Part shown: positions 15,808-19,854 of the stretch, in pieces
Numbering within the stretch: the stretch's first letter is position 1
Layout of the letters: the number at the start of each line of letters is the position of its first letter
NCBI GenBank assembly: GCA_013348845.1
Contig: CP054675.1
Coordinates: forward strand, 939,501-1,003,500
DNA from: Candidatus Tepidiaquacella proteinivora
GTDB taxonomy: Bacteria > Bacteroidota > Ignavibacteria > Tepidaquicellales > Tepidaquicellaceae
Direction: 5' to 3'
Length of the DNA: 64,000 nucleotides
Notes under the pieces: generated by a model
Told to the model about the DNA's origin: nothing
The model's database searches: none
What the model saw: the letters and a program-made list of their open reading frames with translations, nothing else
Made by a program: the position numbers and the translations under genes

Positions 15808-17148
15808 TCAATACCTTCTCGACTTTAATTTTGTTCCTTTCATAAATCCGTCGTAGTGTCTCATTAAAAGATGAGATTCGATTTGCTGCAAAGTATCTAA
15901 AGCAACACCTACGACGATTAATAAACTTGTACCACCAAAAAACTGAGCTAACCCCTGCGTAACGCCCAATTTACTAAGAAAAGTCGGGATAATAGCAATA
16001 ATTGCAAGAAATATAGAACCGGGTAAAGTTATTTTTGTTAAAATATTATCAATAAAATCTGAAGTAGGTTTACCTGGTCTTACTCCCGGTATGAATCCAC
16101 CCTGCTTTTTCATATTATCAGCAACATCTTTCGGGTTAAAAGCAATTGCTGTATAAAAATAAGTGAAAAATATAATCAGTAAAGCATATAATATTGAATA
16201 AACCCAACTTTGATAATTGAAATATTGTGCAACTCTTTGCATAAACTCACTTGGGAAAAAAGACAGGATTGTACTTGGAACAAACATAATAGACTGAGCA
16301 AAAATAATAGGCATAACACCGGCAGCATTTACTTTTAATGGTATGTATTGAGTAACACCACCATAAACTTTTCTACCAATAACTCTTTTTGCATATTGCA
16401 CAGGAATTTTTCTCGTTGCAACAGTTAATACAACAACGCTAGCTATAATTAATATAAACGCTGCAAAATAAACCAATTCGACCAAAATATTTCTATCAGT
16501 ATTCGGGTCTGCTATTAACTGATACTCGGCAAATAAGGCATAAGGGAATCTATCAATAATACCAATGAAAATAATAAGAGAAATTCCATTGCCAATACCT
16601 CGCTCTGTAATTTGTTCACCAAGCCACATCATAAAAATAGTACCAGCAGTAAGCATAATGACAGTTGATAGAGTAAAAACCATAGGTGAAATATCCGGCA
16701 CAACAACTGACATACCATTAATCTGTCTATGAGCAAGCTGGACACTTACTCCCCAAGCTTGTAATGCAGCAACAGGTACAGTTAAAAGGCGGGTAATCTG
16801 ATTAATTTTCTTTCTACCTTCTTCACCTTCTTTCTGGAGCTTTTGAAAATAAGGAAAAACAGCACCGAGTAATTGAATAATAATTGATGCGCTAATATAA
16901 GGCATAATACCTAAAGAAAAAATTGCTGCCTTACTAAAGGCACCACCTACAAATAAATCATAGAGACCTAATAGATCCTGTGCCGCAGATTGTGTTTGTT
17001 GCTGTAAAATTACAGCCACATTAATACCGGGTAAAGTTATATGTGCACCTATACGCACAACAAGTAAAAGAGCAAGAGTATAAAAAATCCTCGTTCTGAG
17101 CTCTTCTATCTTAAATATATTTCTAAAACTCTCAATGAATCCGCTCAT
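15808..17148 (-). CDS. secY: Protein translocase subunit SecY
   Basis: A 446-residue polytopic inner-membrane protein forming the core of the Sec channel. It has about ten hydrophobic helices, with the plug-region motif THITLPGINV-like sequence (HITLPGINV), GIMPYISASIIIQLL, ERGIGNGISLIIF and a basic cytosolic loop with VRPGKPTSDF. Its start overlaps the rplO stop by 4 bp (ATGA type). It would serve the many exported proteins in this window. Confidence 0.97.
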   Translation of the reverse strand: MSGFIESFRNIFKIEELRTRIFYTLALLLVVRIGAHITLPGINVAVILQQQTQSAAQDLLGLYDLFVGGAFSKAAIFSLGIMPYISASIIIQLLGAVFPYFQKLQKEGEEGRKKINQITRLLTVPVAALQAWGVSVQLAHRQINGMSVVVPDISPMVFTLSTVIMLTAGTIFMMWLGEQITERGIGNGISLIIFIGIIDRFPYALFAEYQLIADPNTDRNILVELVYFAAFILIIASVVVLTVATRKIPVQYAKRVIGRKVYGGVTQYIPLKVNAAGVMPIIFAQSIMFVPSTILSFFPSEFMQRVAQYFNYQSWVYSILYALLIIFFTYFYTAIAFNPKDVADNMKKQGGFIPGVRPGKPTSDFIDNILTKITLPGSIFLAIIAIIPTFLSKLGVTQGLAQFFGGTSLLIVVGVALDTLQQIESHLLMRHYDGFMKGTKLKSRRY

Positions 17149-17623: not shown

Positions 17624-17651
17624 AAGACCCCTCGTTTTCACAAGGGGTCTT
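17624..17651 (-). terminator. GC-rich hairpin between the barrel gene and rplO
   Basis: A 9-bp stem (AAGACCCCT / AGGGGTCTT) with a 10-nt loop lies 20 bases after the stop at 17672 and about 20 bases before the rplO start. A short T/A stretch follows on the minus strand, so termination is plausible but probably incomplete, since rplO and secY lie just beyond. Confidence 0.6.
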
Positions 17652-17671: not shown

Positions 17672-18859
17672 TTAGAATTTATATGAAGCTGAAATTACAC
17701 CAAATAAATCATTGTTATTTCCAGTAATCACATTTGGTCCTTCCTTAAGTAATCTTTCACCAACAGTTCCATCAATTGAGAATCTACCGAAGTGCATACC
17801 AAAACCTAATGTAATTGTTTGTGTTGGGTCTGTTGGATATTTAATGTTCCATTCTGCATTTGGTGTTACAGCTTTTACGGTTACCTTTTCACTAATTATT
17901 GATCTTGAATATCCTAATCTTCCAATTAACCAATCCGTAAATGACCATTCAAGACCTCCGTTGATTTTTGGGAAGTCCATTTGAGTAACTTCATAAATAT
18001 TAGTTACTTCATAAGTATAATATCCAAATGATAAACCACCCATCAATAATCCATCATCAAGTACTGGCATATTTATACCAGTTCCAACTGCTAATTGCAT
18101 TTGTTTGTAATCATTGCCAGCAACATTATTTGCATTTGGAGTCCAGCTAAATGTTCCAAAATAAACATAAGGAACGAATGCAACTGAAGATTTTCTTTCA
18201 AAATAGAATTTTCCTCTTAAGAATGCGTCAAGTTGCAGGCCACCATCGGTTTTATCTGTATAATTGGTGGTTTTGTATTCGTATTTATTTGTTTTAACAC
18301 CAATAGATGCTTCAAATAAATTTTTATCGAAATTTACTACTGTACCAACTTGACCACCAAGTGACATTGAGGACCATTCTTGCTTAACATTATTTAATGT
18401 TGAGTCTAAGCTCCACATTGCAATATAAGGAGCAACACCAATAGAAAATTCCTTAGTTGCATAAGCAAATAATACTTTCAAAGGAACAATTGGTTCTGCA
18501 ATACCGGGTACTGCACCCCAGCTTAAAAAATCATTCCATTTATCTTCTCTTTTATTGGCGACTAAACCGAGGCTGATTTCCTTTGAAACACCAAAGTTAA
18601 CACCGGCAAACTGTCCAGTAAGTTCATATTGTGTACCGGTAACTTTGTGTCTACCAATATCACCGAATAAATAGTTCTGGTAATAACCTGCCCAGGCAGG
18701 GTTTCTGTTAATATCTATTGATGCATCCCATAAAAATGGGTTGTAACCTAATGCTTCATATCTTGCTGTTCCACTTGGAATAGCATCTTGTGAAAATGAA
18801 ACACTGGTCAGCATCAACATAACAAATAAAATAGAGAGTAGAATTTTTACTGTTTTCAT
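17672..18859 (-). CDS. Outer-membrane beta-barrel-like protein inside the ribosomal operon
   Basis: I choose the ATG at 18859, which gives 395 residues and has a strong GGGAG ribosome-binding site; the longer 410-residue reading adds a Lys-rich leader before the signal peptide. The protein has a signal peptide (MKTVKILLSILFVML..., ending VSFSQ), then alternating amphipathic strands throughout and a terminal Phe (SASYKF), as in outer-membrane barrels. An early NRNPAWAG motif resembles the 'NPA' segment of FadL/PorV-like barrels, but no family is assigned with confidence. Its position is odd: it splits the conserved rpmD-rplO pair and is flanked by hairpins at 17624 and 18918. It could be a recent insertion carrying its own promoter. 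Confidence 0.75.
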   Translation of the reverse strand: MKTVKILLSILFVMLMLTSVSFSQDAIPSGTARYEALGYNPFLWDASIDINRNPAWAGYYQNYLFGDIGRHKVTGTQYELTGQFAGVNFGVSKEISLGLVANKREDKWNDFLSWGAVPGIAEPIVPLKVLFAYATKEFSIGVAPYIAMWSLDSTLNNVKQEWSSMSLGGQVGTVVNFDKNLFEASIGVKTNKYEYKTTNYTDKTDGGLQLDAFLRGKFYFERKSSVAFVPYVYFGTFSWTPNANNVAGNDYKQMQLAVGTGINMPVLDDGLLMGGLSFGYYTYEVTNIYEVTQMDFPKINGGLEWSFTDWLIGRLGYSRSIISEKVTVKAVTPNAEWNIKYPTDPTQTITLGFGMHFGRFSIDGTVGERLLKEGPNVITGNNNDLFGVISASYKF

Positions 18860-18917
18860 TTTTCTCCCTTTCTTTAGTTTTTTAATTTTTAATTTAGTTA
18901 ACATTATGGTTTCCCAT

Positions 18918-18960
18918 AATGATTTACCAGAAGTTATTAATTAACCTCTGGCAAATCATT
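18918..18960 (-). other. Long hairpin between rpmD and the barrel gene
   Basis: The arms 18918-18935 and 18943-18960 pair over 18 positions. Two imperfect positions become G-U pairs if read as minus-strand RNA, which favours a minus-strand structure. A second short hairpin (18903-18920, ATTATGG / CCATAAT) shares bases with it, so the two exclude each other. The T run (18959-18965) is on the plus-strand side, so this is not a classical minus-strand terminator; it may attenuate or process the transcript. Confidence 0.5.
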
Positions 18961-19161: not shown

Positions 19162-19671
19162 TTAAATCTTTAAAAGTTCACTAACTTTAATTCCTCTTTT
19201 TTCAGCAGCAGTTCTTAAATCATATAAACTTTGTAATGCTTTAACTGTCGCTTTTACAACATTATGAGGATTAGAAGAGCCGAGTAATTTCGTTAAGACA
19301 TCTGTAATGCCTACCGCTTCCATAACTGCTCTTACCCCACCACCAGCAATGATACCAGTTCCGGGTGCAGCTGGCTTCAGTAAGACTTTCGCAGCACCAA
19401 ACTTCCCAATAATCTCAAATGGTATTGTTCCATTCACAACTGGTACTTTAATTATTCTTTTTCTTGCATCTTCAACACTTTTTCTAATAGAATCCGCAAC
19501 TTCATTGGCTTTTCCTAATCCATATCCTACATGCCCTTTTCCATCTCCAACAACACTAATCGCTGTAAAACCAAACCTTCTACCACCCTTCACAACCTTT
19601 GCAACTCTACCAATATAAACTAATTTCTCTTTTAATTCTAATTCACTTGCTTTTATATATTTTTCAGTCAT
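19162..19671 (-). CDS. rpsE: Ribosomal protein S5
   Basis: A 169-residue S5. The N-terminal double-stranded-RNA-binding domain contains [19 protein letters not shown] and [10 protein letters not shown]. The C-terminal domain contains [21 protein letters not shown] and [12 protein letters not shown]5 lines the mRNA entry channel and helps decoding accuracy. A tRNA-Gln lies just upstream on the same strand, between rplR and rpsE, so the rpsE message probably begins at a processed tRNA 3' end or an internal promoter. Confidence 0.97.
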
Positions 19672-19783
19672 TTAATATTATAAAATTATTAATTTAAAGT
19701 CAAGACCTAAAATTTTACCTTAAATTGTGTTTGTATGTTATTGTAATATATATACATTTTAAGGTTCAGAATTTCATTTAATG

Positions 19784-19854
19784 TTCTCAGGGGAGGATTC
19801 GAACCTCCACTAACGGCTCCAAAGGCCGCTGTCCTGCCATTAGACGACCCGAGA
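19784..19854 (-). tRNA. tRNA-Gln (anticodon TTG)
   Basis: The minus-strand cloverleaf has acceptor TCTCGGG pairing with CCTGAGA (one G-U), D arm GTCTAATGGCAGGAC, anticodon stem GCGGC/GCCGT with loop CTTTGGA (anticodon TTG), T arm GGAGGTTCGAATCCTCC, and discriminator A. No CCA is encoded. It lies in the ribosomal operon between rplR and rpsE on the operon strand. Confidence 0.95.

Follow-up and report, generated by a model that had tools for sequence, protein, structure and literature searches.

Outer-membrane barrel genes between rpmD and rplO in the spc ribosomal operon of an order of Ignavibacteria

A barrel gene inside the spc operon

We analyzed a 64,000-nt stretch (hereafter, the window, numbered from its first base) of the 2.40-Mb single-contig genome of Candidatus Tepidiaquacella proteinivora (contig CP054675.1; genome G000). 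The spc operon lies on its minus strand in the order rplR, tRNA-Gln, rpsE, rpmD, barrel gene, rplO, secY, map, infA. The barrel gene, here termed slot gene A (17672–18859), encodes a 395-aa outer-membrane barrel of the PopA superfamily with a signal peptide; it is separated by 104 nt from rpmD upstream (L30; 18964–19143) and by 68 nt from rplO downstream (L15; 17145–17603). Also on the minus strand are secY (15808–17148) and rpsE (S5; 19162–19671), both named by similarity without a family search, and a tRNA-Gln(ttg) gene (19783–19854), which sits inside the operon between rplR and rpsE. The first-pass annotation of this DNA had described a signal-peptide surface-barrel gene that splits the normally adjacent rpmD–rplO pair, has its own ribosome-binding site, and is bracketed by hairpins; these coordinates, together with the gaps in relatives given below, bear out the first point.

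The open frame of A spans 17672 to 18904 and stops at 17672. Its likely start is the ATG at 18859, since this codon opens a signal peptide and has AAAGGGAGAAAA just upstream; the in-frame extension at 18860–18904 (minus strand) is probably leader, with the Shine-Dalgarno-like AAAGGGAG immediately 5′ of the ATG, in agreement with the ribosome-binding site noted at first pass. By Shine-Dalgarno strength, A ranks 4th of 26 genes in the window (a ranking in which the starts of four, rpsD, rpsK, rpsM, and rplR, are misplaced) and 2nd of 23 in the relative G029, ranks that are consistent with good translation.

Three further observations concern the neighboring ribosomal genes. The S10 cluster starts at rplB in the window (26372 onward), and the L3 gene lies ~147 kb away in the same genome (G000:C1:1113431). 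Judged by eye, the C-terminal tail of L22 (24596–25252) is long and charged, and L5 (21564–22232) is extended at the N terminus.

Slot gene A encodes a member of the PopA superfamily

All 21 A proteins compared with the NCBIfam PopA profile match it (best E value, 3e-15). The window protein does so at an E value of 3.8e-10 over profile positions 13 to 366 of 366, and its 39.7 bits fall below the curated NF053618 cut-off of 150 bits, which places it outside the PopA subfamily proper. A structural model of A, of middling confidence (pLDDT, 65.7; pTM, 0.65; built from four sequences), returned PopA in each of its top four Foldseek rows (TMt, 0.67 to 0.69) and aligned to solved PopA with Z scores of 27.4 and 27.3, the next other protein scoring 18.2. 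A sequence search of solved structures with A did not find PopA, its best match being OmpA (E value, 0.0073). Profile match and predicted fold alike assign A to the PopA superfamily. The type member of that superfamily is Bdellovibrio Bd0427/PopA, a major outer-membrane protein (Parr et al. 2025, PMC12228718); the legend of Fig. 6 in that paper names an Ignavibacter superfamily member, such that PopA, its superfamily, and the presence there of an Ignavibacter protein are already known.

The model of A contains 17 strand segments (one of 3 residues), of which the first four measure 6 to 8 residues, the third from last 22, and the last two 12 and 11. Members of the PopA superfamily have 16 strands, with strands 1 to 4 and 14 to 16 short; the first four predicted strands of A fit this pattern, whereas the third from last does not. 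Where the superfamily has a helical plug in the barrel lumen, A is predicted to form short helices at residues 31–36 and 56–59, both of low to middling pLDDT, and a run of invariant residues falls between positions 27 and 55. The superfamily also forms a radial oligomer with a lipid chamber set by loop 8; in A, predicted as a monomer only, the stretch between the last two strands comprises ~12 residues, mostly of low confidence.

Ten genes were compared with their window counterparts. In G021 and G029, conservation is lowest for A, which might be as expected of a surface protein; in G001, it is lower for rplR and rpmD than for A.

Distribution of the slot among relatives

The first-pass annotation proposed looking for the same gene at the same site in relatives. 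A protein search with A found matches in 25 of 59 genomes, and in 22 of these, all within the order, the match adjoins rpmD, rplO, or both. The remaining three comprise a longer paralogue elsewhere in G010 and distant copies in G045 and G052, both outside the order and with no ribosomal neighbors within the fetched flanks. Across 44 genomes of the order (including G002, G040, and G031, which were added to the count and in each of which a contig end cuts the locus), the slot holds A in 23, a second barrel gene, B, in 7, and no gene in 11, with no state assigned in 3 (G034, G042, and G043). A is flanked by both neighbors in 20 genomes and by a single neighbor in 3 more. Its orthologues occupy the slot in both families of the order, at identities down to 38%; family f2 has A in 12 of its 15 genomes (the other 3 without an assigned state), and family f1 is a mosaic. 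Sister genomes do not uniformly lack the gene without trace, as would have spoken against the first-pass reading: they carry A, the other barrel or, in 4 of the 11 empty slots, a hairpin of the B type, with no such hairpin in the other 7.

Where rpmD and rplO share a contig (38 genomes of the order), the gap between them falls into three groups only, of 52 to 156 bp (11 genomes), 884 to 1,017 bp (7 genomes), and 1,375 to 1,518 bp (20 genomes). Outside the order, the gap is 27 to 109 bp in 55 genomes among the matches listed (250 searched), too short for a gene in each of those compared. An RplO scan of named genomes gave 80 loci, six of them (L063 to L068) from the order and three of those with gap sequences identical to ones already counted (L064, L066, and L068 to G005, G019, and G012, respectively); in 73 of the other 74 loci, the gap is 14 to 197 bp, and the last has no readable rpmD. 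Among viral contigs, profile scans turned up no relatives of A or B, and a scan with RplO was likewise negative.

The assemblies that carry A include one of a single contig, one of two contigs, and many that are fragmented. In four f2 genomes (G031, G040, G042, and G043), the assembly breaks within the slot gene or next to it, as would be seen if the population were variable at this point.

The second slot gene

Slot gene B encodes a signal-peptide barrel of about 230 to 240 residues. All six scanned members match PF13505 (OMP_b-brl) at E values up to 0.1 (best, 1.1e-11), and one (L048), at 29.0 bits, exceeds the Pfam gathering score of 28.7; the seventh slot B is that of G004. A sequence search of solved structures with B retrieved OprF (E value, 0.00033). 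B is possibly kin to the BT1926-like family of 8-strand barrels, in which the radial oligomer forms via loop 1 (PMC12228718). Further copies of B lie outside the slot in G008, G009, G011, and G028; in G009 (L152:579–1259), a B-type gene that contains an internal TAG sits ~1.9 kb 5′ of rplB, close to where the same ribosomal cluster begins.

A profile–profile comparison of A with B gave 89.8% probability over about half of A, from the signal peptide on, at 21% identity. To call the two unrelated would therefore be too strong; we treat them as different families, with distant kinship as barrels possible.

Leaders and hairpins around the slot gene

Both hairpins noted at first pass fold far better than shuffled sequences, and their conservation differs. 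The 5′ hairpin in the rpmD–A leader (18918–18960, minus strand; z score, −10.1, with none of 200 shuffles as good) is kept in one sister species (G002; L004). On the operon strand it lacks a T-run; the T-run sits on the opposite strand, so the hairpin is not an intrinsic terminator for the operon. It is not an order-wide element: z scores below −8 occur in G000 and G002 only, other leaders ranging from +0.7 to −3.6. In G001, the remaining member of the genus, the leader hairpin is of another kind and weaker, and leaders of genus g8 have little structure.

In leaders of family f2, a nested, covarying hairpin surrounds the invariant GACGTCATC immediately 3′ of rpmD (e.g., L022:1379–1488). It comprises 14 pairs with 95.4% of cells paired, and its covariation of 0.322 compares with 0.255 after shuffling (1 of 500 shuffles as high, although the shuffles do not preserve relatedness) and with at most 0.091 when the element is slid. 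No Rfam family matched this element in L022 or L014, and in the window, only tRNAs reached gathering scores. Among six relatives' loci there was one match below gathering, to the Brucella sRNA BSnc120 (30.5 bits versus 114; E value, 0.0016); on the opposite strand, it spans the A–rplO gap of L022, and what it picks up there is probably just the hairpin. Eight leaders measure just 54 to 77 nt. In three rpmD–B leaders (L048, L143, and L037), a second RBS-like stretch and ATG, followed by a stop after one or two codons, precede the B start, and this extra ATG may be what is left of the start of an earlier slot gene or may open a very small leader ORF.

The 3′ hairpin, AAGACCCCTTG/CGAGGGGTCTT (17624–17651, minus strand), is the only exact copy of its pattern in the genome, and its gap folds at −22.5 kcal/mol (z score, −5.8; none of 200 shuffles as good). 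A terminator scan also lists it, carrying no evidential weight alone because the regional total (8 found versus 7.5 expected) is at chance level. Unlike its 5′ counterpart, it is kept across the order: downstream of 27 of the 28 readable slot genes is a strong hairpin (z scores, −2.3 to −8.2), L013 (G024) being the exception, with A present and the hairpin absent. A CCCCTYG/CRAGGGG stem core is common to 19 of 21 A loci (the stem of L007 is strong but different, and L013 lacks one) and spans two families between which the A proteins share about 40% identity. In exact scans of 15 genomes, this stem occurs at the slot in G000, G001, G009, G021, G022, G029, and G037, with a sole match elsewhere, at one unrelated site in G016. 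Such conservation of sequence exceeds what a plain terminator needs.

A-type stems are followed directly by 1 to 5 T and end 20 to 27 nt before rplO (20 A loci with a hairpin). B-type stems are strong in all seven cases, with 7-T tails in four and broken T-runs in the other three, and lie 36 to 87 nt from rplO; on sequence features, a stable stem with a T-run, the B-type hairpin is a predicted intrinsic terminator.

How the slot occupants changed

At an E value of 1e-6, A was not found elsewhere in genomes with an empty or B-occupied slot, apart from the longer paralogue in G010. On a species tree of ribosomal proteins plus SecY, the three slot states require at least 9 changes, versus 20.4 for shuffled labels; this is a quick tree with 9 open forks, from which gain and loss are not distinguishable. 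Trees built from A and from B agree with it in broad outline, with several forks left open.

A probable exchange is seen in genus g9, in which G022 carries A and G010 carries B. Their leaders are alike, and the first coding bases are identical at 22 of 24 positions and the next at 10 of 36; divergence begins at about codon 8, inside the signal peptide. A shared leader and first ~8 codons, followed by divergence, point to exchange in place. In other A/B pairs, the leaders are less strikingly alike and the first codons differ (G007 agrees with G021, G009, and G027 at 8 to 9 of 24 bases), with the exception of G006 and G022, which are alike at 21 of 24.

Empty slots in G011, G014, G015, and G023 contain a hairpin with the B stem; the other 7 of the 11 bear no B-type hairpin trace. 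Exact scans of 16 genomes found the B stem at the slot in G004, G007, G011, G013, and G015 and at five other sites, a rarity that makes a chance footprint in empty slots unlikely, although the stem there could also predate B.

These observations can be read in two ways. The bolder, which we advance only tentatively, is that the slot is a permanent socket with its own leader and 3′ hairpin, in which barrels have been exchanged in place behind a shared leader and signal-peptide start, tying envelope make-up to ribosome synthesis. Alternatively, the ancestral slot may have held A and B in tandem, lineages having since lost one or the other, with no foreign cargo swapped in. Broad agreement of both gene trees with the species tree suits such losses, as does the B-type hairpin in four empty slots, yet no genome with both genes was found among the 38 gaps (the largest, 1,518 bp), and the G022/G010 junction fits replacement, even if the same pattern could result from collapse of a tandem at 5′ ends that resemble each other; we judge this history rather unlikely.

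Probable transcription through the slot and a proposed working

Signals for two known promoter types are at shuffle level in 28 leaders: the sigma-70 type scored 7.93 versus 7.87 for shuffled sequences (3 of 28 exceeding the shuffled mean by >1) and the Bacteroidota type 6.57 versus 6.85 (0 of 28), and a promoter of A's own of either type was accordingly set aside. This promoter result, same-strand packing, short gaps, and the little room before rplO together favor one transcript through the slot. The 20 to 27 nt between the A hairpin and rplO leave little space for a separate rplO promoter and make a complete split of the operon at this point, as one option raised at first pass, look unlikely in A genomes, though a promoter inside A may feed rplO. 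Ribosomal and other genes are not told apart by codon usage (0.673 versus 0.681), which therefore gives no support for high expression of A; by this measure, A ranks 5th among 36 non-ribosomal ORFs.

It is thus most likely, as we infer from gene arrangement, that A is transcribed with the ribosomal genes and that supply of the surface protein tracks ribosome synthesis; the coupling to growth rate suggested at first pass is plausible on these grounds. Under co-transcription, a major surface protein would rise and fall with ribosome synthesis. The 3′ hairpin of A would act as a leaky terminator or 3′-end stabilizer, leaving more A message than rplO–secY message as polymerase passes, and the B hairpin, with seven T in 4 of 7 cases, would terminate more strongly. 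With shifting demands on the surface of a lineage, the cargo would be exchanged or lost at the site. Processing of tRNA-Gln could, in addition, cut the transcript and provide a fresh 5′ end for the rpsE–rpmD–A piece. A tRNA-Gln(ttg) gene separates rplR from rpsE in 43 of the 50 loci examined (every one of the 40 from the order, three being second copies of the same genome, and 3 of 10 outside); one further locus has tRNA-His at this position, and G006 and G010 have two tRNA-Gln genes (ttg and ctg).

An unlikely rival to co-transcription would give A its own leader promoter and a terminator that acts fully. Its location in the operon would then be a matter of history, out of reach of ribosomal control, and rplO–secY would depend on read-through or on a promoter within A. 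The short distance from A-type hairpins to rplO and the eight leaders of only 54 to 77 nt speak against this arrangement, as do the promoter scans, and what it has in its favor is the strength of the hairpin after A, the conserved structured element in f2 leaders, and, for B, the 7-T tails with 36 to 87 nt left before rplO. Recent chance insertion of A, a possibility named at first pass, or an assembly artefact would account for the interruption of a pair that is adjacent outside the order, but is ruled out for practical purposes by the presence of A at one site in 23 of 44 genomes, in two families and varied assemblies, with a conserved 3′ hairpin.

What the sequences show is a position that does not vary, two different occupants, 3′ hairpins under conservation, and, within the signal peptide, one junction of exchange. 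We consider it probable that this old site between rpmD and rplO is dedicated to an outer-membrane barrel in this order, that its occupant is coupled to ribosome synthesis, that the hairpin has the role proposed, and that the cargo has been replaced or lost in place. Counting against this reading are the uninformative codon usage, the eleven genomes that lack a slot gene, the occurrence of A without its hairpin in G024, the short T-runs (1 to 5) behind the A hairpin, the lower conservation of rplR and rpmD than of A in G001, and the structured element peculiar to f2 leaders; a leader promoter of some other type may also exist.

Significance and comparison with known systems

How bacteria match the growth of the outer membrane to ribosome-driven growth is an open question, and a surface gene kept in the spc operon in two families despite a changing occupant offers a natural test of it. 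If the socket reading is true, the composition of the envelope follows ribosome synthesis, and the barrel cargo evolves through the swapping of cassettes. In the literature searched, with most subscription papers beyond reach, we found no earlier description of such a slot for a barrel gene within a ribosomal operon. The major outer-membrane protein gene of Chlamydia, ompA, adjoins a ribosomal-protein gene, rpsB. To our knowledge, it does not lie in an operon interior.

The slot also gives a genomic home to a member of the PopA superfamily, a class of lipid-trapping barrels described in 2025 (PMC12228718). A resembles PopA in its best solved fold match, by a wide margin, in the short first strands of its model, and perhaps in having 16 main strands, as B resembles OMP_b-brl barrels in its profile matches. 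The main text on PopA does not mention ribosomal genes (the string “ribosom” occurs 0 times; PMC12228718), whereas A of the window sits in the spc operon. Non-ribosomal genes are likewise embedded in spc operons elsewhere, in the form of secY, map, infA, and adk, and in Streptococcus pneumoniae the rpsN gene of this operon has been replaced where it stands, a precedent for exchange within it (both from PMC8046335). The embedded genes described there serve export or housekeeping or are ribosomal, whereas the gene embedded here encodes a surface protein whose kind varies among relatives.
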